NCBI GenBank assembly: GCA_019636235.1
Contig: JAHBXW010000002.1
Span: 310,001-374,000 of the forward strand
From: Planctomyces sp.
Lineage (GTDB): Bacteria > Planctomycetota > Planctomycetia > Planctomycetales > Planctomycetaceae
DNA length: 64,000 bases
Direction: 5' to 3'
Both the position numbers and the translations under genes were made by a program. The number at the start of each line of letters is the position of its first letter. Positions within the stretch are counted from its first letter, which is position 1. Positions 8,141 through 20,340 of the stretch are shown here, one piece after another. Below the pieces are notes generated by a model, which had not been told where the DNA came from, searched no databases, and was given only the letters and a program-made list of their open reading frames with translations.

Positions 8141-8287
8141 CGGCGGACTGGCCGGAGCGCGTCACCACGACGTGGCGGCGATGCGATCAGTGGTTGAAGG
8201 ATGCACACCGCACGGCGCGAGTGGGGACACAGTCGCCGCCGTGCGAGGCGGATAGCCAGGCGCAATGAGCGCTGCAGGGAGGCAGTC

Positions 8288-10189
8288 ATGCGGGGTCTTG
8301 CGAAAGGCTGGTCATTCCGGCGCCTGGCGCCGAGGTGCCTGGCTGCGCTGGCGCTCAGCACGTGCGTCGGAAAGATCGTCGTTTCGAACGACGTCATCTG
8401 CGAGACGCCCGGCGCGACCTGTCGGACGGGGCCGACGGTCGTGGGCGGCGCGCCGGGCACGGTCTACGTCGATCGCCATGAATCCTTCATGGAGCGCATG
8501 CGGTCGATGCATCGCCGGATGTCGTGGAAGCACAACACGAATCACCACGACAAGATGTACTGGGATCTGCCCCCGTACTGGCTCCCGAACCACGGCTATT
8601 ACCAGACGACCTGGCGGCAGGGCGCCTGCTCGTACCCGCAGGAACTCTGCCCGTCCCCTCCGTTTTCGGTGATGGAGGGCAAGCCGCGACCGGTCGACAG
8701 CCCGGACTCGTCGCTGCTGCCGCTGCCGGAACCGCATCCGGTCGATTCTGACTACTCGCCGCCGCTCGCGCCCGACGCGGTCCCGATGCCGCCGAATCGT
8801 TCGCTGCCGAACGAATTCCCGGTCCCCGCGCAACCGAACGGGCCGTCCGGAGAGAATCCGGGGCCCGGCGCCGCCCAGCCGAATCCGTTCCTTCCGCCGC
8901 GGTCGCTCTCGGGACTGCGGATCGGCCTGCGGTTCGAAGACGAGGAACTCGCCCCGGAAGCGCCCGACGCGCCGGAGACGCGCCCCGCCGCAACGCCTTC
9001 CGGCAGGCTGGTCGACGTTCGCCCCGCGGCGAAGACTCCCAGGCCCAAGGCGCCCGCGGCGCCGGAACCCGAAATCGCCGCCGGCGTGCGGAACATCGCG
9101 CCCCCTGCGCCCGATGAAGCGTTTGAAACGCCGCAGTCGTTGTGGAATCCGCGGACTCAGCAGGCGATGGCACCGGAGGATCCGGGCGCCCGTTTGAGCA
9201 TCGACGACGCCGACTGGCAGTTCCCCTCGGAGCGTGTCGTCACGCCGACGACCGGCGCGGCCGCCCGACGGATTGTGCCGCCCGTCATCGAAGAACTGCC
9301 GCCGCCTCCGGCGTCCCCCCGGTCGCTTCCCGCCGAACTGCCGGCGAAGAGCGCCCAGGAGTCGCCTCCCGCCAGAGCGACGACCTCCTCCGCGCTGGCG
9401 CCCATTGGCGACGCCGACCTCGCCGACCTGCCGAGCACGCTGCAGCTGACGCCCGAAACCATCGACGAACGCGGCACGCCGCACGTCGCGGCGCCGACAT
9501 CGATCGCGAAGTCAGCAGCCACGCCGCTGCCGGTCGAGCAGCCGCGCTCCGCCGAACCGCCGGCCGCCATCGCGGCTGCAGTGCCGACATACGCGGCGAC
9601 TCCGGCCTCGTTTCCCAGCGCGCCGAAACGCGTTTCAGGCGATGCGCCATCCCTGACGCCGATCATTGCCACGCGATTCGCAGCGAAACCTCGGCCGGAA
9701 ACGCTGCCCTGCCTGGGCAGCCGGATCATGCCCGAACCGGTCCTGGCGTCGCCGCTGCAGTCGCAGCTCGCAAGCGCCATTCCGACGACCTCCAGGCAGA
9801 CCGCTCAGTCGCCGCTGCGTCTGACTTCCAGCGAGCAGCCTGGCCGAGTGCGGTTCGACGACGACGAAGATGCGGCGGAGTCCGGGCCGACCAGTCCTGT
9901 TCGTCCGGCCGCACGCCGAGTTCCGGAAGCTCGGACCGCCGCCGAACAATTCGGCGTCGATCAGGCGAACTCAACGCGTCTGCCGCAGCGGGCCGCGTCG
10001 GCTCCGCCGATGGCGATTCCCCAGGACGAGCCTGCCGGGCTGATCGAACTCGATCTCGATGAGCCGGAGACGCCGAAGGAGTCCGAACCGCAGGCGCCGA
10101 ATCCGTTGCCGTTCCTGACGTCCGGCGATAAGGCTGCCGATTCTTCGGAACTCGGAGCGCTGCTGCACCTCGACGATTTCGAGGACTGA
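8288..10189 (+). CDS. Secreted Pro/Ala-rich hypothetical protein
   Basis: 633 residues from ATG 8288, preceded by AGGGAGG at good spacing. The N-terminus is a signal sequence (RRLAPRCLAALALSTCVG). A short folded-looking section with His, Trp and Tyr follows (about 60-130: NHHDKMYWDLPPYWLPNHGY). The remainder is a long Pro/Ala/Glu-rich, low-complexity region typical of extended envelope or wall-spanning proteins. The acidic tail ends LLHLDDFED. No enzymatic motif was seen. It is the third gene of the rightward group beginning with the export lipoprotein, so an envelope role in export is inferred. Confidence 0.7.
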   Translation: MRGLAKGWSFRRLAPRCLAALALSTCVGKIVVSNDVICETPGATCRTGPTVVGGAPGTVYVDRHESFMERMRSMHRRMSWKHNTNHHDKMYWDLPPYWLPNHGYYQTTWRQGACSYPQELCPSPPFSVMEGKPRPVDSPDSSLLPLPEPHPVDSDYSPPLAPDAVPMPPNRSLPNEFPVPAQPNGPSGENPGPGAAQPNPFLPPRSLSGLRIGLRFEDEELAPEAPDAPETRPAATPSGRLVDVRPAAKTPRPKAPAAPEPEIAAGVRNIAPPAPDEAFETPQSLWNPRTQQAMAPEDPGARLSIDDADWQFPSERVVTPTTGAAARRIVPPVIEELPPPPASPRSLPAELPAKSAQESPPARATTSSALAPIGDADLADLPSTLQLTPETIDERGTPHVAAPTSIAKSAATPLPVEQPRSAEPPAAIAAAVPTYAATPASFPSAPKRVSGDAPSLTPIIATRFAAKPRPETLPCLGSRIMPEPVLASPLQSQLASAIPTTSRQTAQSPLRLTSSEQPGRVRFDDDEDAAESGPTSPVRPAARRVPEARTAAEQFGVDQANSTRLPQRAASAPPMAIPQDEPAGLIELDLDEPETPKESEPQAPNPLPFLTSGDKAADSSELGALLHLDDFED

Positions 10190-10778: not shown

Positions 10779-11726
10779 GTGCTTACGTCTGATTCCAAGG
10801 TATTCGTCACCGGCCATCGCGGCCTCGTCGGCTCGGCTATCGTCCGCCGACTGACCGCCGCGGGGTGCGGCGCCGTCCTGACCGCCGGGCGGGACGCGCT
10901 GGATCTTCGCGATCAGCGGGCCGTCGATGACTGGTTCGACCGCGAACGCCCCGAGTTCGTGTTCCACGTCGCCGGCAAAGTCGGGGGCATCTGGGCCAAC
11001 TCCACGCAGCCGGCGGAGTTCCTGTACGACAACCTGATGATGCACGCCACCGTGCTCCGCGCGGCCTGGCGGACCGGCGTCCGCAAACTGCTGTACCTGG
11101 GCAGCTCCTGCATCTATCCCCGCGACTGTCCCCAGCCGATCCGCGAAGACGCCCTGCTGTCCGGGCCGCTGGAACGCACCAACGACGCCTACGCGATCGC
11201 CAAGATCGCCGGTCTGATGTCGTGCGACGCCTATCGCCGGCAGTACGGCTGCAACTTCATCTCGGCCATGCCGACCAACCTGTACGGGCCCAATGACAAC
11301 TTTCACCCGCAGCACGCCCATGTTCTGCCGGCTCTGATCCGCCGGTTTCACGAGGCCCGGCTGAGCGGCGTGCGGGACGTGACGATCTGGGGCACCGGCC
11401 GGCCGCGGCGCGAGTTCCTGCACGTGGACGACCTGGCCGACGCCTGCGTGTTCCTGATGCAGAACTACGATGACCCGGGGCCGATCAACGTCGGCTGCGG
11501 CGAGGACGTGACGATCCGCGAACTCGCGGAGACGATTCGCGACATCGTCCATCCGGACGCGTCGCTGACGTTCGACGCCTCAAAGCCGGACGGCACGCCT
11601 CGGAAACTGCTGGATGTGACCCGGCTGCACGCGCTCGGCTGGCGGCATCGGATGCCGTTGTCGGAGGGTCTGCAGTCGACCTATCGCTGGTTTCTGGAAC
11701 ACAGTGACCAACTTCGATCCCACTGA
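10779..11726 (+). CDS. fcl: GDP-L-fucose synthase
   Basis: Converts GDP-4-keto-6-deoxy-D-mannose to GDP-L-fucose by epimerisation and NADPH-dependent reduction in the cytoplasm. 315 residues from a GTG start. It is a short-chain dehydrogenase fold with nucleotide motif TGHRGLVG (11-18), a Ser in GSSCIYP, the YAIAK catalytic Tyr138/Lys142 pair, and the family stretch [19 protein letters not shown]. Length matches the family. The substrate would come from the gmd products at 16393 and 19309. The gene opens the rightward biosynthetic cluster, separated from gmd by four unrelated genes. Confidence 0.93.
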
Positions 11727-11746: not shown

Positions 11747-12727
11747 TTGCTCGAACGACACTTGACGCTGTGGCTGACGCTGTTGTCGGCGCTCGCGTTC
11801 TGGTGGCCGTGGGGGGCGCTGGACCCGTTTGTGGCCGCGCGTCCGGCGGTTCCGTGGATGATCGCCGTGACAATGTTCCTGGTCGGCTGCCTGATGCGGC
11901 CGCGCGAGGTGGACGACCTCGTCCGGCGCTGGCCGGTGGTGCTGTTCGGCACGGGCGTGCAGTACACGGCGATGCCGCTGCTGGGCTGGCTGTGCGCGAC
12001 GTCGCTGCCGCTCAGCCCGGAATTGCGGCTGGGCGTGATCGTGGCCGCCTGCGTGCCGGACGCGATGGCCTCCGGCGCGGTGACGGTCATCGCCCGGGGG
12101 AATGTGAGCTATTCGGTGAGCCTGACAATCGGCAGCACGCTGCTGTCGCCGATCGTGGCGCCGCTGGCGATGCGCTGGGCCGCGGGCACGACGTTTCCCG
12201 TCGACGCGGGGGAAGTCGGCATGACATTGATGCTGCAGGTGGTGGGTCCTGTGCTGGCCGGACACTTCATCTGCCGGCGGCTGGGGGAATCGAGCCGGCT
12301 GGCGCGCTGGAGTTCGACGTCCGCCAACCTTGCGATTCTGTGGATCATCGCGGTCGTGGTGGGATTGAACCGGGCGAGAATCGGCGAGTTGTTCGGCAGC
12401 GGCGTGCGGGGCGAAGCGGTTCCGCTGATCGCCGCGCTGCTGGGCCTGAATTTGCTGGGCTATGTGGCGGGCTACGCGGCCGGAGCGGCGGGACGTCTCG
12501 ACGAGCCGAAGCGCCGGGCGCTGAGCATTTCGGTCGGCCTGCAGAACGCCGGGCTGGGCACGGCCCTGATCCTGACGGTGTTTCCGGATCAGCCCGCGGC
12601 GGCGATACCCACAGCGTTGTACACCTTCGGATCGATGTGGACCGGGACGCTGCTGGCCCAATGGTGGTCGCGGAGGCCGGTAGTGGCGCCGGAGCCGGTC
12701 GCCCTCGAATCCGGGGCGGAGGGCTGA
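11747..12727 (+). CDS. Bile acid:sodium symporter (BASS) family transporter
   Basis: 326 residues from a TTG start, nearly all membrane: about nine or ten hydrophobic helices. Typical features of the SBF/BASS fold are present, such as CVPDAMASGAVTVIARGN and ISVGLQNAGLGTALIL, the conserved crossover-helix regions. Members import organic acids and related solutes with sodium. It begins 20 bases after fcl and is followed by a class II aldolase-family gene, so the imported substrate may be a sugar acid or aldehyde; this is inference. The substrate cannot be read from the sequence. Confidence 0.8.
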   Translation: MLERHLTLWLTLLSALAFWWPWGALDPFVAARPAVPWMIAVTMFLVGCLMRPREVDDLVRRWPVVLFGTGVQYTAMPLLGWLCATSLPLSPELRLGVIVAACVPDAMASGAVTVIARGNVSYSVSLTIGSTLLSPIVAPLAMRWAAGTTFPVDAGEVGMTLMLQVVGPVLAGHFICRRLGESSRLARWSSTSANLAILWIIAVVVGLNRARIGELFGSGVRGEAVPLIAALLGLNLLGYVAGYAAGAAGRLDEPKRRALSISVGLQNAGLGTALILTVFPDQPAAAIPTALYTFGSMWTGTLLAQWWSRRPVVAPEPVALESGAEG

Positions 12728-12733
12728 CCGCGC

Positions 12734-14017
12734 ATGACTGATCTCGCCCATCCGCGCGATGCGATCCTGGCGACGATGGACCGCATCTATCGATATCGAA
12801 TGACGACCACGTCCGGCGGCAACATCTCGCTGCGGGATGAGGCCGGGGATGTATGGATCACTCCGGCGCGGCTCGACAAGGGGGCGCTGCGGCGGACGGA
12901 TGTCGTCCGGGTCCGCGCCTCGGGCGACTTTGAGGGGGACATTCGGCCGTCGTCCGAGTTGCCGTTTCACCAGGCGATCTACGCGGCGCGGCCCGACATC
13001 CGCGCCATCGTCCACGCCCATCCGGCGGCGCTCGTGGCGTTCAGCATGGCCCGCATGACGCCCGAGACGCGGCTGTTTCCGCAGTCCTGGCACGTCTGCG
13101 GCGAACCGGGCTTCGCCCCCTATGCGTTGCCCGGCAGCGCGAAGCTGGGCGAGAACATCGCCGAGCAGTTTCGCCGGGGCTACAACGCCGTCGTGCTCGA
13201 GAACCATGGCGTCGTCGTCGGCGCGGGAACGCTGGCCGAGGCCTTTCAGCGGTTCGAAGCTCTGGAGTTCGTGGCGCAAACGGCCATCCGGGCGCGAACG
13301 CTGGGCGAGGCCCGGGCGCTGTCGCCCAAGGAGCTCGACCTGCCGCAGCAGCGGCGGCTCGACTTCCGCGGCGTCCCCCGCGCGGCCCCATCGAGCAATG
13401 AACGCGAACTCCGTCGACAGGTCAGCGAGTTCGTTCGTCGCGGTTGCCAGCAGCGGCTGCTGATCAGCACGGAAGGCAGCTTTTCCGCGAGTCTGTCGGC
13501 CGAAGAGTTTCTGATCACGCCGTCGCAGCAGGACCGGTTTCAGGTCGGGCCGCAGGATCTCGTGTGGGTTCGGGGGGATGACTGCGAACTCGGGCGGCAG
13601 CCGAGTCGGGCCAGCCGCTGCCACCAGGCGATCTACGCCAAGCACCCCGACGTGCAGGCGATCTGCTTCGCGCATCCGGTGCATGCGACGGCGTTCAGCG
13701 TCACCGGGACATCCCTCGACAGCCGGACGATCCCCGAGAGCTACATTGTCCTCCGCGACATTGCCAGAATCCCGTTCGGACTGCCGTACCAGAACGGCGC
13801 AGCGGTCGCCGACCTGGTGTCCGCCAGGCAGCCGGCGGCCCTCCTCGATCACGATGGCGTGCTGGTGCTCGGCGCCAGCGTGCTGGACGCGTTCGACCGG
13901 CTGGAAGTGATGGAAGCGACGGCCGAGGCGTTGATCTTCAGCCGCCGGATTGGCGAAGCGAGCCCGATGCCGGATCGGGTGATCGCCGAACTCCGGGACC
14001 ACTTTCTCAAGGACTGA
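12734..14017 (+). CDS. Duplicated class II aldolase/adducin-domain protein
   Basis: 427 residues containing two class II aldolase domains in tandem. Domain 1 (about 1-200) has the complete zinc/catalytic set: SGGNIS, SSELPFHQ (catalytic Glu), HAHP and ENHG. Domain 2 (about 220-425) keeps the fold (CHQAIYAKHP, FAHPVHA, DHDGVLV) but has GSFSAS for GNIS and SRASRCHQ where the Glu should be, so it is probably non-catalytic. Single-domain members cleave L-fuculose-1-phosphate or L-ribulose-5-phosphate-type substrates. It follows the BASS transporter by 6 bases. Substrate unknown; fuculose phosphate is plausible given the neighbours. Confidence 0.82.
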   Translation: MTDLAHPRDAILATMDRIYRYRMTTTSGGNISLRDEAGDVWITPARLDKGALRRTDVVRVRASGDFEGDIRPSSELPFHQAIYAARPDIRAIVHAHPAALVAFSMARMTPETRLFPQSWHVCGEPGFAPYALPGSAKLGENIAEQFRRGYNAVVLENHGVVVGAGTLAEAFQRFEALEFVAQTAIRARTLGEARALSPKELDLPQQRRLDFRGVPRAAPSSNERELRRQVSEFVRRGCQQRLLISTEGSFSASLSAEEFLITPSQQDRFQVGPQDLVWVRGDDCELGRQPSRASRCHQAIYAKHPDVQAICFAHPVHATAFSVTGTSLDSRTIPESYIVLRDIARIPFGLPYQNGAAVADLVSARQPAALLDHDGVLVLGASVLDAFDRLEVMEATAEALIFSRRIGEASPMPDRVIAELRDHFLKD

Positions 14018-14021
14018 CAGC

Positions 14022-15269
14022 ATGCGGCAAACATTCTGTCGGACTGCGATGGGCTTCGCCTGCGGGGCGTGGCTGGCGCTGGCGTCGGCCGCGGAGGCGC
14101 AGGTCGGCGAAGTCCCGGCGGCGCTGCGGGAACGTCTCCAGCTGTCGGAGTTTTACGGCAGGCATCTCGATGTGCTGGGCATTCCCATCATCGCCTCCGG
14201 GGACGTGTCGGACGTGGCGCTGCAGGAGGCCGGTCATCTGGTGATGAAGATGCTGGAGCACCGTCCGGATGTCGCGGCGGCGATCGCGGAATCCGGGGTG
14301 CGGATCGCCATCATGGCGCCGAATCAATTCACGACCGACATCCCCGAGCATTCGGATCTGACGCCGGCGGCCTACTGGAACCGCCGCGCCCGGGGCCTGG
14401 GGGCGACGCACGTCAGGCCGGCCGTCAGTTGCGGCGAGGAGAACCTGCTGTGCCTGCCGGGCGATCCCTATGCCGCGGAGAACATCCTGATTCACGAGTT
14501 TGGCCACGTGATCCATCAGATCGGGATGGGGGGCGTCGACCGGACGTGGGATCGACGGCTGCGGGAAACCTACGAGCAGGCCCTCGCCGAGGACCTGTGG
14601 AAGGGAACCTACGCGGCCAGCAATCATTCGGAATACTGGGCCGAGGCCGTGCAGTCGTGGTTCGACACGAATCGTGAGAATGACGCGCAGCACAACCATG
14701 TGAACACGCGGGACGAACTCCGCGAGTACGATCCGCGGCTGGCGGAGTTGTGCGCGGACGTGCTGGGCGATGGCGACTGGCGGTACGTGCGGCCGCGCGA
14801 CCGGACGCCGCCGTCGCCGCACTTCGAGGGTTTCGACGTGGCGTCGCGACCGGCCTTTGAATGGCCGGCGGAACTGCTGGCCGCCGCCGCGGAAGCTGGC
14901 GAACCGACGCGCACGCGGATTCCGGCCGGAGCCGCTCCGCTGGTCCCGAGGCCGCCGGACGCCAGCAATCCGCCGCGTTCTGTATCAGGCGGCGAGGCCG
15001 CCACGCTGTGGATCCGCAATCGGATGTCGACTCCCGCGCGACTGGACTGGATCGACTTCGACGGCCAGTCGCAGAGTTACGGCACAGTGCCGTCCGGCGG
15101 AGTGCATGAACAGTCGACGTTTACGAAACACGTCTGGCGGCTGACGGTCGCTGACGACGACGTGCGCGAGTACGTCGTCGATGGCGCCCGGAGTCGCATC
15201 GTGCTGGACGCCAGCGCCGGCGAAGCCGACGGCGACAAAGCGAATCAGGACGGAACCCAGGACCGCTGA
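14022..15269 (+). CDS. Secreted zincin metalloprotease-like protein with C-terminal VHL-beta-like domain
   Basis: 415 residues with a signal peptide (cleavage near ASAAEAQ). The HEFGH zinc motif at 158-162 is followed about 50 residues on by NHSEYWAEAVQSW, whose Glu could be the third ligand as in gluzincins. The C-terminal part (about 328-383) has IRNRMSTPARLDWIDFDG, a YGTVPSGG turn and TFTKHVWRLT. This closely follows the beta-domain pattern of the VHL tumour suppressor, which is known to occur in some bacterial proteins. It starts 4 bases after the aldolase stop, so it is cotranscribed. Substrate unknown. Confidence 0.72.
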   Translation: MRQTFCRTAMGFACGAWLALASAAEAQVGEVPAALRERLQLSEFYGRHLDVLGIPIIASGDVSDVALQEAGHLVMKMLEHRPDVAAAIAESGVRIAIMAPNQFTTDIPEHSDLTPAAYWNRRARGLGATHVRPAVSCGEENLLCLPGDPYAAENILIHEFGHVIHQIGMGGVDRTWDRRLRETYEQALAEDLWKGTYAASNHSEYWAEAVQSWFDTNRENDAQHNHVNTRDELREYDPRLAELCADVLGDGDWRYVRPRDRTPPSPHFEGFDVASRPAFEWPAELLAAAAEAGEPTRTRIPAGAAPLVPRPPDASNPPRSVSGGEAATLWIRNRMSTPARLDWIDFDGQSQSYGTVPSGGVHEQSTFTKHVWRLTVADDDVREYVVDGARSRIVLDASAGEADGDKANQDGTQDR

Positions 15270-15270
15270 C

Positions 15271-16311
15271 ATGCTGCCACAGGTCAAACTCGGACGGACG
15301 AACCTGCCGGTGAGCGCCATCGGTCTGGGGGGACTGTTCACGTCGTCCCTCGGACCGGGCTTCGAGGAAAGCCGCGCCGCCGTGCGGACTGCGGTCGAAC
15401 TGGGCATCACCTACATCGACACCGCCCCGGCATACGCGAACAGCGAAGAGGTCCTGGGACGCATCCTCCGCGACATCCACGCGCCCCTGGTGATCTCGAC
15501 GAAGCTCGGCGGCCGCCCGCAGCCGTTCCAGCCGCAGGACGCCCGTCAGCTCCGCGCCTCGGCGGAGGAGTCGTTGCGGCTTCTGGGCCGGGAGGTCATC
15601 GACGTCCTGTTCGTCCACGAGCCGGACCGACCGTTGCAGTACAACTGGTGGAGCGATCCGAAATCGGTCGATGGACCGGTCGTCGAAGTGCTGGAAGACC
15701 TCCAGCGGCGGGGCGTCGTCCGCCACACGGGTCTGGGCGGCACGACCTCGACCGAAATGGCGCACCTAATGCGAAGCGGCCGGTTCGACGTCGTCCTGAC
15801 GGCGTTCAACTATTCCGCGCTGTTCCGCGAGGCGGAGCGCGAAGTCCTCCCGGAGGCCCGGCGATCGAATCTGGGCGTCGTACTGGGCTCGGTCCTGCAG
15901 CAGGGCGCCCTGGGGCGCCGGTACGACGACGTCCTGCAGGCGACGCCCCGGCCGGCCTGGCTGTCCGAGGATCGGCGGCGGCAGCTCAAGGCCTTCTATG
16001 CGTTGCTGGACGAGGCGGGCATGCCGATCGCCGAGTTCTGCCTGCGGTTCGCGCTGTCGCGGCCGGACGTCACCGGCTCGGCGTGCGTGCTGATCGGGGC
16101 GAAGACGCCCTCACAGGTGGAAGAATCGGTCCGATCCGCGGCGAAAGGACCGCTGCCGGACGACTTGCTGCTGCGGGCGGACGAGATCGCCGCGATGGTG
16201 GTCAACCGCCCGTTCGAAGAGCCGATGATCCTGCCCTTGAACCGCCCCTGGGACTACTGGGGGCCGGGGCCGGCGAACATCGGCGCGGGCGCGCCGGTTG
16301 GCCGCCTGTGA
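15271..16311 (+). CDS. Aldo/keto reductase
   Basis: NAD(P)-dependent oxidoreductase, 346 residues, starting 1 base after the preceding stop. The catalytic tetrad is visible: Asp and Tyr in YIDTAPAYANSE, Lys in VISTKLGG and His in LFVHEPD. The C-terminal cofactor region with VLIGAKTPSQVEES is also clear. The pattern TAFNYSALFREAEREVLPEA resembles the D-threo-aldose 1-dehydrogenase/L-fucose dehydrogenase branch, but assignment at that level is uncertain. With the BASS transporter, aldolase and zincin genes it forms a compact insert between fcl and gmd. Confidence 0.82.
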   Translation: MLPQVKLGRTNLPVSAIGLGGLFTSSLGPGFEESRAAVRTAVELGITYIDTAPAYANSEEVLGRILRDIHAPLVISTKLGGRPQPFQPQDARQLRASAEESLRLLGREVIDVLFVHEPDRPLQYNWWSDPKSVDGPVVEVLEDLQRRGVVRHTGLGGTTSTEMAHLMRSGRFDVVLTAFNYSALFREAEREVLPEARRSNLGVVLGSVLQQGALGRRYDDVLQATPRPAWLSEDRRRQLKAFYALLDEAGMPIAEFCLRFALSRPDVTGSACVLIGAKTPSQVEESVRSAAKGPLPDDLLLRADEIAAMVVNRPFEEPMILPLNRPWDYWGPGPANIGAGAPVGRL

Positions 16312-16392: not shown

Positions 16393-17460
16393 ATGAATCG
16401 CTCTCGTCCTCCGAAGAACGGCAAGAAGGCACTGATCACCGGCATCACCGGGCAGGACGGCTCGTACCTGGCCGAGCTGCTGCTGGACAAAGGCTATGAG
16501 GTCTGGGGCGTGATCCGGCGGTCCAGCTCCTTTAATACCGGCCGCATCGACCACATCTACCAGGACCCGCACGAAGCGGACGTGCGGCTGCGGCTGGAAT
16601 ACGGCGACCTCAATGACTCCTCGTCGATCAACCGTCTGCTGAAGATCGTGCGGCCGGACGAGATCTACAACCTCGGCGCGCAGTCGCACGTGAAGGTGTC
16701 GTTCGAGATCCCCGAGTACTCGGGGGAGGTGACCGGCCTGGGGGCGGTGCGAATCCTCGAGGCGATGCGGGAACTTGATCTCGACGCCCGGTTCTACCAG
16801 GCCTCGTCCTCGGAACTGTACGGCAAGGTGCTCGAGACGCCGCAGACGGAGGACACGCCGTTCTACCCGCGCAGCCCGTACGCCTGCGCGAAGGCCTACG
16901 CGTTCCACATCACTCGAAACTACCGAGAGTCGTACGGGATGTTCGCCGTCAACGGCATCCTGTTCAACCACGAGTCTCCCCGCCGCGGCGCGACGTTTGT
17001 GACCCGCAAGATCACCCGCGCGATCGCCGCCATCAAACACGGCCGGCAGGACTGCCTGTACCTGGGCAACCTGGACGCCAAGCGCGACTGGGGCTTTGCC
17101 GGCGACTACGTCGAGGCCATGTGGCTGATGCTGCAGGTCGATGAGCCGGACGACTTCGTCATCGCGACGAACGAAACGCACACGGTCCGCGAGTTCTGCG
17201 ATCTCGCCTTCGCGCACGCGGGGATGCCCATCCGCTGGCAGGGGGACGGGGAAGCCGAGCACGCGATCGGACCGGACGGCAAACCGCTGATCCGCATCGA
17301 TCCCCGCTACTTCCGCCCGGCGGAGGTCGACCTGCTGCTGGGCGATCCGGCGAAAGCCCGCCGCAAGCTGGGCTGGGAGCCGAAAGTCCGGTTCGAGGGG
17401 CTGGTGAAGATGATGGTCGACGCCGATCTGGAACTGGCCCGCGCGGGCCGCGTCGAGTGA
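16393..17460 (+). CDS. gmd: GDP-mannose 4,6-dehydratase (copy 1)
   Basis: Makes GDP-4-keto-6-deoxy-D-mannose, the precursor of GDP-fucose, from GDP-mannose. 355 residues. NADP-binding [12 protein letters not shown], the [15 protein letters not shown] family signature, [20 protein letters not shown] and the YACAK catalytic motif are all present, as are NHESPRRG and [12 protein letters not shown]. This is the more canonical of two gmd-like genes in the window; the other is at 19309-20340. It supplies fcl at 10779. Confidence 0.95.
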
Positions 17461-18034: not shown

Positions 18035-19312
18035 ATGCCGACCCGGATCCTGTTCATCAACCGTTCGTACTGGCCCGACACCGAGGCCACGGGGCAGTTG
18101 TTGACCGAGTTGTGCGAGGACCTCGCCGCCGACGGCGAGTTCGACGTGCACGTGCTTTGCGGACGACCGAACCATGTGTCGGGCGCGCCTCCCGCGGGGG
18201 GCGACGCGGACGTGCACAACGGCGTGACGATTCACCGCATCCCCCACACGGCGTTCTCCAAACGCTCCACGCTGGGGAAGCTGACGAATCTCGTGTCGTT
18301 CACGCTGTCGGCCTGGTGGAACTCCTCGCGGGCGCCGAAGCCGGACATCGTGATCACCGAAACAGATCCGTTCTTCCTGGGGCTGCTGGGCAAGCGGCTG
18401 AAGCGGAAATTCGGGTGCCGGTTCGTGGCCTACCTGCAGGACCTGTATCCGGACGTGGCGGTGGCGGTGGGGAAGGCGCGGGAGACGCTGTCCATTCGCC
18501 GGCTGCGGCGGGCGCTGTTCGGGGCGTACGCCGCCGCGGACCGCGTCGTGGTGCTCAGCCGCGACATGCGCGAACGCTGCGCCGAACACGGCGTGGACGA
18601 ACGTCGGATCGACATCATTCCCAACTGGGCGGATGTCGAGTCGCTGCGGCCTCTCAAAGAGAACAACGAGTTCCGCCGTCAGCAGGGGCTGAGCGATGAG
18701 TTCGTCGTCATGTACTCCGGCAACATGGGGCTGCCGCACCTGCTGACGCCGATCCTCGACGCGGCCGAGCAGCTCAACGGCCGCCCGGACATCCGGTTCC
18801 TGTTCGTCGGCGAAGGCGTGCAGAAGGCGGACCTGGACCGCGAGGCGCGGCAGCGCGGCCTGGAGAACGTCCGGTTCCTGTCGTACCAGCCCAAGGAATT
18901 CCTGTCGCACAGCCTCAGTGCGGCCGACGTGCAGATCGTCTCGGTCAAGCCGGGCGTCATCGCCTGCCTGATGCCCAGCAAGCTGTACGGCATCCTCGCC
19001 GCCGGCTGCAGCGTGCTGGCGATCGCGCCGCGGAATTGCGAGATGTCGGAACTCATCGCCGCGCAGGGCCTGGGCGAAGTCTGCGACTTCGACGATCCCG
19101 CGCCGCTGGGCGGACAGATCGCTGACGCCATTCAAAAACTTTGCGACCGCGGCCGGCTGGCGGACATCGTCCCCCGTGCGCGGAAACTGGCCGTGGACGA
19201 CTACTCCCGGGCGCTGCAGGTGCGGCGGTTCCGGGAGCTGTTCCGGTCGCTGATCGCCGAGCCGGCCAGCGAACCCTCCCGCAGCGCGCCGGCGGCCGCC
19301 GCCCATTCGTGA
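18035..19312 (+). CDS. Glycosyltransferase family 4, WcaI-like
   Basis: Cytoplasmic GT-B glycosyltransferase of about 425 residues, with N-terminal LFINRSYWPDTEATGQLL and C-terminal YSGNMGLPHLL, FVGEG and SVKPGVIACLMPSKLYGILA, the pattern of colanic-acid WcaI-type (fucosyl)transferases. In E. coli WcaI acts in a gmd/fcl locus, so fucosyl transfer is plausible here. The ATG at 18035 is preferred to the TTG at 18008. Its TGA overlaps the GTG start of the next gmd-like gene, implying translational coupling. Confidence 0.85.
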   Translation: MPTRILFINRSYWPDTEATGQLLTELCEDLAADGEFDVHVLCGRPNHVSGAPPAGGDADVHNGVTIHRIPHTAFSKRSTLGKLTNLVSFTLSAWWNSSRAPKPDIVITETDPFFLGLLGKRLKRKFGCRFVAYLQDLYPDVAVAVGKARETLSIRRLRRALFGAYAAADRVVVLSRDMRERCAEHGVDERRIDIIPNWADVESLRPLKENNEFRRQQGLSDEFVVMYSGNMGLPHLLTPILDAAEQLNGRPDIRFLFVGEGVQKADLDREARQRGLENVRFLSYQPKEFLSHSLSAADVQIVSVKPGVIACLMPSKLYGILAAGCSVLAIAPRNCEMSELIAAQGLGEVCDFDDPAPLGGQIADAIQKLCDRGRLADIVPRARKLAVDDYSRALQVRRFRELFRSLIAEPASEPSRSAPAAAAHS

Positions 19313-20340
19313 ACCTGTCCGTGTCGACCCCGCATTCCAGCGACGCTCCGCGAGCGCTCATCACCGGCATCACCGGTCAGGACGGCACGTACCTGACCGA
19401 GCTGCTGCTGGAGAAGGGGTACGCGGTGTACGGCACATCGCGGCGCGAGCCGCACGCGGCCGAACGGGCGCTCCGCCGGCAGATCGGCGACGCCTGGGAC
19501 GCCGGCCGGATTCAACTGTTCCAGGCGGAACTCGCCGACGCCGAGCGAATCTTCGACATCGTCCAGGCCGTCCTGCCGCACGAGACGTATCACCTCGGCG
19601 CCCAAAGCCATGTCGGGCTGTCGTTCGAGTCCCCGTTCGAAACGGTCGATGCGAACGCCCGCGGCACGCTGGCCATGATCGACGCGGTCCGCCGCATCGC
19701 CGAGATCCAGCCCGTGCGGATGTACCAGGCCTCCACCAGCGAACTGTTCGGCAAGCCGGACGTCTGGCCGCAAACCGAAAAAACGCCCTTCCACCCCCGG
19801 AACCCCTACGCCTGTTCGAAGGCTTATGCCTTCGATGTGTCGGTGTGCTACCGCGAGGCCTACGGCGTCTACGTCTGCAACGGCATCCAGTACAATCATG
19901 AGTCCCCCCGGCGGGACCCGCGGTATGTGACCCGCAAGATCACGCAGGCGGCGGCCCGGATCGCCGCGGGCCGGCAGGAAAGGCTCGAACTCGGACGGAT
20001 CGACGTCGGCCGCGACTGGGGCTACGCGCCAGAATACGTCGACGCCATGTGGCGGATGCTGCAGCAGCCCGAGCCGGACGACTACATCGTGGCGACCAAC
20101 GAGTGGCATCCGCTGACGGAGTTTCTGGACATCGCCTTCGCCCGCGTGGGGCGGAACTGGCGGGATTGCGTGGACAGCGATCCGCGGCTGATGCGGCCCT
20201 CGGAAACGGGTCGCCTGCAGGGGGATTACAGCAAGGCCCGCGACCGGCTGGGCTGGTCGCCGCGAACGACGTTCACGGAACTCGTCGAGCAGATGGTCGA
20301 CGCGGACGTGGAACGGCTGCGGCGGGGCGAGGACGACTGA
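19309..20340 (+). CDS. GDP-mannose 4,6-dehydratase (copy 2, divergent)
   Basis: 343 residues from GTG 19309, which overlaps the preceding stop (GTGA). It carries [32 protein letters not shown], the YACSK catalytic motif and DWGYAPEYVDAM, so it is a Gmd paralogue. It lacks the RRSSSFNT stretch of copy 1 (it has SRREPHAAERA instead). It could be a second dehydratase or a GDP-6-deoxy-4-keto-hexose enzyme such as a GDP-rhamnose (RMD) reductase. An in-frame extension upstream lies inside the previous gene and is rejected. Confidence 0.85.
   Translation: MNLSVSTPHSSDAPRALITGITGQDGTYLTELLLEKGYAVYGTSRREPHAAERALRRQIGDAWDAGRIQLFQAELADAERIFDIVQAVLPHETYHLGAQSHVGLSFESPFETVDANARGTLAMIDAVRRIAEIQPVRMYQASTSELFGKPDVWPQTEKTPFHPRNPYACSKAYAFDVSVCYREAYGVYVCNGIQYNHESPRRDPRYVTRKITQAAARIAAGRQERLELGRIDVGRDWGYAPEYVDAMWRMLQQPEPDDYIVATNEWHPLTEFLDIAFARVGRNWRDCVDSDPRLMRPSETGRLQGDYSKARDRLGWSPRTTFTELVEQMVDADVERLRRGEDD

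Follow-up and report, generated by a model that had tools for sequence, protein, structure and literature searches.

A putative secreted zincin of Planctomycetota with a predicted von Hippel–Lindau beta-domain and a possible role in the capture of hydroxyproline

Animals sense oxygen with the help of VHL, the textbook reader of hydroxyproline. Why, then, does a bacterial gene for a zinc-peptidase-like protein end in a segment that resembles the VHL beta-domain, and what might this segment contribute to the enzyme? We addressed these questions for a gene in a stretch of 64,000 nucleotides from Planctomyces sp. (assembly GCA_019636235.1, contig JAHBXW010000002.1, positions 310,001 to 374,000), hereafter the window (Table 1). 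The open reading frame starts with ATG, with AAGGA located 8 nt upstream, and the N-terminus of the product, as judged by eye, combines a basic start, a hydrophobic stretch and an AxA motif, suggestive of export. A search of NCBIfam with the window protein returned no family, and its relatives in 19 loci from a pattern scan of public genomes share 45–60% identity with it.

Table 1. Features of the zincin-VHL gene, its neighbourhood and the related loci discussed in the text (locus names precede coordinates outside the window)
Feature	Coordinates	Strand	Basis
662-aa protein ending 3.8 kb upstream; 16% proline, 12 non-overlapping PP pairs	8201-10189	+	sequence
Epimerase-family gene	10779-11726		
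Sodium/bile-acid-symporter-family transporter, 6 nt upstream of aldolase gene	11747..12727	+	PF01758, 91.9 bits
Tandem class II aldolase/adducin, ends 4 nt before zincin start	12734..14017	+	PF00596, two stretches
Zincin with C-terminal VHL beta-domain, whole gene, 415 aa	14022..15269	+	ORF and sequence
Putative Sec-type signal peptide, ~residues 1-26, cleavage near AEA/QV	14022..14099	+	judged by eye
Predicted catalytic domain, M34-like/Pro-Pro endopeptidase fold, ~residues 29-255	14106..14786	+	model; Foldseek, VIA
HEFGH zinc-binding motif, residues 158-162 (H158, E159, H162)	14493..14507	+	kept in family alignment
Y197, candidate oxyanion-hole tyrosine (PPEP-3 Tyr190)	14610..14612	+	conservation, spacing
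E204, candidate third zinc ligand (PPEP-3 Glu197)	14631..14633	+	conservation, spacing
Predicted VHL beta-domain, residues 316-401; pocket W343, Y353, T366, H370, W372	14967..15224	+	PF01847; Foldseek, VIA; pocket alignment
Aldo/keto reductase, 1 nt after zincin stop	15271..16311	+	PF00248, 155 bits
GDP-mannose 4,6-dehydratase gene	16393-17460	+	PF16363
Second GDP-mannose 4,6-dehydratase gene	19141-20340	+	similarity only
S9B/DPP4-like peptidase with VHL, the other VHL protein in the genome of the window (contig 23)	L150:1662-4475	-	Pfam
Zincins with N-terminal VHL-like domain	L186:763-1869, L187:1291-2523, L189:1078-2235, L190:1059-2306		custom profile
Zincin with C-terminal cyclophilin prolyl isomerase	L074:1378-2712, L077:3-1268	+	PF00160, 98.9 and 37.2 bits

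A VHL beta-domain at the C-terminus

The preliminary description had read the C-terminal part of this HEFGH zincin as a VHL beta-domain, and the Pfam profile bears this out: PF01847, whose curated cut-off is 21 bits, matched residues 320–378 (23.8 bits, E 4.7e-5) and scored the same protein at 27.1 bits in a whole-genome scan, with no match in any of 14 control genomes. In a phmmer comparison of the window protein with PDB sequences, human VHL was the leading, albeit weak, match (best E 0.014). Conversely, phmmer with 57 human VHL residues alone matched a frame in 32/32 loci recruited by PF01847, with E ≤ 1 referring to this small set (L020–L051).

The AF2 model of the window protein (20 sequences, mean pLDDT 66, ten-residue means of 58–80 over residues 321–400) places seven strands at positions 326–395. 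Human pVHL was the first PDB match of this region in Foldseek (E 4.0e-6, probability 1.00), which reported 75 chains at E ≤ 0.001, the best 50 of these 75 all being pVHL. In VIA, residues 316–401 of the predicted model aligned with human pVHL at up to Z 9.7, so that the fold predicted for this region is similar to that of the human beta-domain (PF01847; PDB 1lm8, 1lqb, 4awj), the sandwich-type match that the preliminary description had anticipated. Because the profile, the search with human residues and the predicted fold agree, the resemblance is more than chance; a chance motif match is ruled out by the profile, the predicted fold and the recurrence described below. We thus consider it confirmed, at the level of the profile and the predicted structure, that the window protein bears a VHL beta-domain. 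Human pVHL additionally has an alpha domain for elongin C, whereas the window protein is a bacterial enzyme without it: no elongin BC box or helical alpha domain was found after the beta-domain, the protein ends 14 residues beyond residue 401, and past the final strand the AF2 model has a single helix, at residues 397–400.

Bacterial VHL domains as such are already known from Pfam and from one paper (PMC9002001). The protein described there, EMK97_00595 of Litorilituus sediminis, is a hypothetical VHL protein that the authors discuss with regard to tumour suppression; like the window protein, it is bacterial and has a signal peptide and a VHL beta-domain, but the passages of that paper concerned with it mention no enzyme domain and do not discuss hydroxyproline targeting of enzymes (PMC9002001). 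In Planctomycetota, VHL domains are not rare, with PF01847 matches in 56 of 392 genomes and in 38 of the 217 high-quality ones. Two lie in the window's genome (5.6 Mb in 45 contigs): that of the window and another on contig 23, within a frame of 938 aa. The assignment of this genome to Planctomycetota fits its 59 matches to PF07596, a family expanded in planctomycetes that has no match in any of the 14 controls. Among 12 genomes reached through relatives, 6 had no PF01847 match.

A catalytic domain resembling Pro-Pro endopeptidases

Folded alone (262 residues, pLDDT 75; model mab0f97cd744a), the catalytic domain retrieved PPEP-3 as the first PDB match in Foldseek (E 3.9e-4), and the first 11 rows were all PPEPs. 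In VIA, PPEP-3 was aligned over 187 residues with Z 12.8, rmsd 3.7 and 16% identity, PPEP-2 and PPEP-1 reached Z 12.5 and 12.3, and the first 23 rows were PPEP-1/2/3, followed by anthrax lethal factor domains from Z 11.1. We lean towards a PPEP fold rather than one of the lethal-factor type for the predicted structure, a lean and not proof because the gap is below 2 Z. The Pro-Pro endopeptidases PPEP-1, PPEP-2 and PPEP-3 (PDB 6r5c, 6fpc, 9g5j), which belong to peptidase family M34, match the window protein in the order of HExxH, Tyr and Glu, with similar spacing, and in a signal-peptide-like start, at 12–19% identity over the aligned parts.

In an alignment of 99 members of the zincin family, H158, E159, H162 and E204 are conserved in 97 sequences each and Y197 in 96; three of the 102 zincin frames were dropped from these counts, their best match covering only part of the domain. 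The catalytic residues of PPEP-3 are given as His153, Glu154, His157, Tyr190 and Glu197 (PMC12828418), and we equated them with those of the window protein by order and spacing: the distance from Tyr to Glu is 7 in both (Y197/E204 and Tyr190/Glu197), and that from His to Tyr is 39 in the window protein versus 37 in PPEP-3. The window protein thus combines a predicted PPEP fold with HExxH, a candidate oxyanion Tyr and a candidate third-ligand Glu. It differs from PPEP-1 and PPEP-3 in having the extra VHL domain and S203-E204 instead of a tandem Glu (Glu184/185 in PPEP-1, Glu196/197 in PPEP-3).

It is the predicted fold and the spacing of the zinc-site residues that support the PPEP likeness; a sequence-profile search of the PDB with the zincin gave no significant match (lethal factor best E 0.02, PPEP-1 0.45–0.67, PPEP-3 1.2). 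The window protein scored 13.7 bits against Pfam ATLF (PF07737), below the cut-off of 27.4, which its relative L184 clearly passes (34.4 bits), and 24 of 32 scanned relatives match ATLF at E ≤ 0.1 (best E 1.5e-8); nothing we saw suggests a toxin role. Membership in Peptidase M90 (PF06167) was rejected for the window protein (14.3 bits, cut-off 26.2), and L184 reaches that cut-off as well (26.8 bits).

The fusion of this zincin with VHL recurs in Planctomycetota and in Poribacteria. We detected the zincin at E ≤ 1e-10 in 77 of 392 Planctomycetota genomes, with VHL on it in 11, and the 19 zincin loci from the pattern scan comprise 16 from Poribacteria, the remainder coming from Akkermansiaceae, Phycisphaerales and Prosthecobacter, the Poribacteria loci being the yield of a pattern scan and not of a census. 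The tails of the Poribacteria zincins score 12.8–16.9 bits with PF01847 in 8 of 10 scanned, below the cut-off, and do not match in the other 2, whereas a custom VHL profile finds them at 1e-11 to 1e-14 (E in a small set); their assignment rests on the custom profile since PF01847 is sub-threshold there. Second copies in Poribacteria pass the PF01847 cut-off (L151–L153, L155, L157).

Among 102 distinct zincin frames, 36 carry a VHL or VHL-like domain, which is C-terminal in 31, located between two zincin domains in one (L100) and N-terminal in 4; the other 66, in a catalogue partly gathered by VHL, have none, and many of these are the bare enzyme of ~300 aa. The N-terminal domains are found by the custom profile at E 1e-6 to 1e-8 (small set) and do not match Pfam VHL; they are of a ‘GHRF/GHEF’ type with Tyr98 and Trp117 replaced, so that the pocket is partly changed, and one of these zincins (L189) comes from the window's genus. 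In two genomes of one genus, the zincin is fused to a cyclophilin (L074, L077). Other partners among the scanned frames are Sel1 repeats, duplications, phytase-like, marginally pectate-lyase-like and glycosidase domains; the Pfam survey of partners covered 55 of the 102 frames, and further fusions may be missed. On a tree of 62 catalytic domains, in which L100 and L111 form long branches, the VHL label has to change 6 times, and well-supported branches force at least 3 of these changes.

The hydroxyproline pocket and the partners of bacterial VHL domains

The hydroxyproline site of human VHL, as characterized in the relevant part of PMC9528729, consists of W88, Y98, H110, S111, H115 and W117; the hydroxyl of hydroxyproline is bonded to S111 and H115 and its carbonyl to Y98, and W88, Y98 and W117 are described as buried aromatics. 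By sequence alignment, N333, W343, Y353, T366, H370 and W372 of the window protein correspond to human N78, W88, Y98, S111, H115 and W117. The five side chains that we define as the full pocket (W88, Y98, S/T111, H115 and W117, either Ser or Thr being allowed at 111) are therefore all present in the window protein, T366 being a conservative change. The neighbouring positions differ, with S365 in place of H110, a backbone contributor in human VHL, and F367 in place of Y112.

For a wider comparison, we collected 78 VHL domains, namely 76 PF01847 places and two second sulfatases (L146, L147) found by the custom profile; the 75 places outside the window correspond to 69 loci, in which the custom profile found 77 VHL frames. 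The partners were clustered with VHL masked and identified by Pfam. The largest group consists of 41 S9B/DPP4-like peptidases, with PF00930 in 41/41 and PF00326 in 40/41, followed by 11 zincins (window included), 10 sulfatases, 4 LRR proteins, 4 SASA esterases and 4 NPCBM/F5-8 proteins, and by single cases of GH127, a protein kinase with MORN repeats, PPC (sub-threshold) and a short TM-like protein (by eye). L150, which bears the other VHL domain of the window's genome, has the commonest VHL architecture (41/78), with VHL inserted so that most of the DPPIV_N region follows it. These S9B peptidases, a family known for cutting after proline, share VHL and its pocket with the window protein, but they are serine peptidases with an inserted VHL, whereas the window protein is a zincin with a C-terminal one. 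Two Verrucomicrobiota genomes found by way of relatives (L018, L015) also encode VHL-S9B proteins (L202, L203).

In addition, VHL-S9B proteins and the zincin tend to occur in the same genomes: with the 11 fusion genomes excluded, the zincin was found in 15 of 38 genomes with VHL-S9B versus 51 of 343 others and, outside the window's class, in 9 of 25 versus 38 of 318 (p 0.003), counts that ignore genome size and relatedness and do not treat the four genomes with N-terminal VHL-like zincins as fusions.

The full pocket is present in 39 of 41 S9B peptidases and 9 of 11 zincins, that is, in 48 of 52 peptidase-linked VHL domains, compared with 6 of 26 VHL domains on other partners. When 77 positions of the 52 peptidase-linked domains are ranked by conservation, the top 8 include five of the six pocket residues (hypergeometric 1.6e-5, relatedness ignored); T/S111 is kept in 52/52, as Thr and not Ser in 50, H115 is kept in 51/52, and Tyr98 is absent from 2 of the 11 zincin domains (L114, L121). 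The Poribacteria copies from the pattern scan keep W88, T/S111, H115 and W117 in 16/16, and their Tyr98 is one residue out of register, requiring a one-residue shift to align.

Outside the peptidases, H115 is kept in 10 and absent in 16 of 26 domains. All 17 VHL domains that lack it, including the sole S9B exception (L127), belong to one clade (support 99/92), in a tree of 91 columns in which 34 of 79 inner branches are open and human VHL is not placeable. Because this is a single clade split, Fisher tests on the H115 contrast (p 4e-9) are not independent evidence, and we discarded them. The domain is otherwise retained in the clade without H115, which is therefore likely not needed for the fold; where it is kept, its role is probably functional rather than structural.

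These data bear on the possibility that VHL is a structural or inhibitory appendage, with the pocket residues merely stabilizing the sandwich. Such a role would fit the 66 of 102 zincin frames that do without VHL and the description of W88, Y98 and W117 as buried aromatics in human VHL (PMC9528729), but the apparent dispensability of H115 for the fold argues against it, as do the at least 3 well-supported changes of the VHL label in the zincin tree and the presence of VHL or VHL-like domains at either end of the enzyme, and we regard it as very improbable.

Several further VHL proteins were observed in the course of the survey. In L113, L122 and L130, VHL proteins without His115 are encoded next to each other (LRR and SASA esterase, in L113 also GH127). 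The kinase (L140:1933-3654, minus strand) is a Ser/Thr kinase that has MORN repeats and, at its C-terminus, a VHL with all five pocket residues. The NPCBM/F5-8 proteins L144 (2127-5561, plus strand), L148 and L149, of up to 1,145 aa, combine NPCBM and F5/8 with a terminal VHL that keeps His115; the Pfam-based identification recognized no catalytic family in the NPCBM/F5-8 group. On a verrucomicrobial contig (L202:692-7471), two sulfatases and an S9B peptidase, all with VHL, are encoded in a row, which suggests a joint attack on a sulfated glycoprotein.

Possible functions of the zincin-VHL protein

The computed features from which a function can be proposed are the VHL fold and pocket, the PPEP-like fold, the zinc-site residues and the repeated pairing of VHL with proline-specific kinds of peptidase. 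Our leading reading, which we put forward tentatively, is that the window protein is a secreted, proline-directed metallopeptidase of the M34-like/PPEP fold in which VHL serves as a module for the capture of (hydroxy)prolyl substrates. The zinc metallopeptidase would be exported from the cell, and its catalytic domain would act on proline-rich, possibly hydroxylated, polypeptides. Through the pocket with which human VHL binds hydroxylated HIF, the VHL domain would hold on to prolyl or 4-hydroxyprolyl residues, and it might thereby keep the enzyme on hydroxyproline-rich matter, such as animal or sponge collagen, gelatin, or glycoproteins of plant or algal cell walls, in the way that a carbohydrate-binding module retains a glycosidase; collagen is one substrate that we infer. 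We prefer this reading because the PPEP fold, the hydroxyproline-reading human relative, the DPP4-like commonest partner and the prolyl isomerase as an alternative partner agree. The preliminary description had likewise proposed a secreted binding or targeting module by analogy with the eukaryotic substrate receptor. The binding or targeting part stands as the most economical reading, given that the human hydroxyproline pocket is kept, whereas the receptor analogy is limited because no elongin-binding alpha domain follows the beta-domain.

The sulfatase, esterase, LRR, NPCBM/F5-8, GH127, kinase, PPC and TM partners are not proline enzymes, and VHL may therefore be a general extracellular attachment module, for glycan, matrix or envelope, that has no special link to hydroxyproline and that peptidases carry because they are common secreted enzymes. 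The occurrence of VHL on sulfatases, esterases, LRR, NPCBM/F5-8 and GH127 proteins and the row of VHL proteins at L202 (two sulfatases, one S9B) are in line with such a role. However, 52 of 78 partners fall in two peptidase families, both with proline-specific enzymes as their nearest known relatives, and H115, which binds the hydroxyl of hydroxyproline in human VHL, is absent from 16 of 26 non-peptidase but 1 of 52 peptidase domains, albeit in one clade. On balance, we consider general attachment rather unlikely.

Another alternative is that the enzyme acts on a proline-rich protein at the bacterium's own surface, with VHL docking on unmodified polyproline and hydroxyproline uninvolved. There is a precedent in Clostridioides difficile, where PPEP-1, according to the relevant section of PMC11460543, cleaves the organism's own CD2831 and CD3246. 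The window's genome has no match to PF13640 (2OG-FeII_Oxy_3), the 2OG-oxygenase family searched, and thus, as far as this family goes, no sign of home-made hydroxyproline; we set hydroxylation by the bacterium itself aside for this reason. Furthermore, a 662-aa protein rich in PP pairs and without a Pfam match at E ≤ 0.001 is encoded upstream and is a possible peptidase substrate; it is, however, only a candidate for both surface exposure and the substrate role. Moreover, plain proline would offer T366 and H370 no obvious partner, although T/S111 is conserved in 52/52 peptidase-linked domains and H115 in 51/52. An own-protein substrate thus appears distinctly unlikely to us.

Turning back to capture of hydroxyproline, the window's genome has one match (318 bits) to PF05544, the proline-racemase family, and the presence of this enzyme, together with the lack of a PF13640 match, suggests an extracellular source of hydroxyproline. 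Across genomes, PF05544 (77 carriers with E ≤ 1e-50, 36 of 113 being dropped as weaker or partial matches) occurs in 23 of 56 genomes with VHL versus 54 of 336 others, and the link is weak outside the window's class (9/41 versus 36/311, p 0.08). A link to hydroxyproline catabolism through PF05544 was set aside on account of this weakness and of the plain proline racemases that the family also includes.

Poribacteria, the other phylum in which the fusion recurs, are sponge-associated and, in the part of PMC7042410 relevant here, appear adapted to degrade mesohyl-derived carbohydrates; the same source reports no colonies on two types of collagen-coated plates, which is neutral with regard to the zincin-VHL enzyme. 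For other sponge symbionts, the pertinent passage of PMC8546597 connects hydroxyproline transport with collagen degradation as a role that it might serve. The text of a Poribacteria paper (PMC3909097) contains neither VHL nor von Hippel, and PMC6235002, where it touches on the subject, speaks of bacterial prolyl hydroxylases and not of bacterial VHL. In the open-licence literature, we found no report pairing bacterial VHL with proline-specific peptidases; zincin-VHL is a recurrent pairing of known domains for which we found no earlier report.

More speculatively, and as a reading that we consider rather unlikely, VHL with a full pocket might be a general bacterial hydroxyproline-binding module on secreted PPEP-like and DPP4-like peptidases of Planctomycetota, Verrucomicrobiota and Poribacteria that digest collagen or hydroxyproline-rich glycoproteins, the same reader having been recruited later by HIF oxygen sensing in animals. 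If true, this would provide a function for a bacterial VHL family left unexplained in the literature searched, a candidate pre-HIF history of the VHL fold, and a testable explanation of how bacteria recognize collagen and hydroxyproline-rich cell-wall proteins, with relevance to sponge symbiosis and organic-matter turnover, and would offer compact hydroxyproline-binding reagents.

As for the genomic context, we compared the window's neighbours with frames of ≥ 150 aa in L001–L199, many of which have short flanks, and, apart from the copies belonging to the window itself, the only match was a GDP-mannose-dehydratase piece in L178; a conserved operon was therefore rejected. Within the window, the spacing of the genes indicates that the aldolase, zincin-VHL and aldo/keto reductase genes are likely co-transcribed, and GDP-mannose dehydratase and glycosyltransferase genes lie downstream of the aldo/keto reductase.
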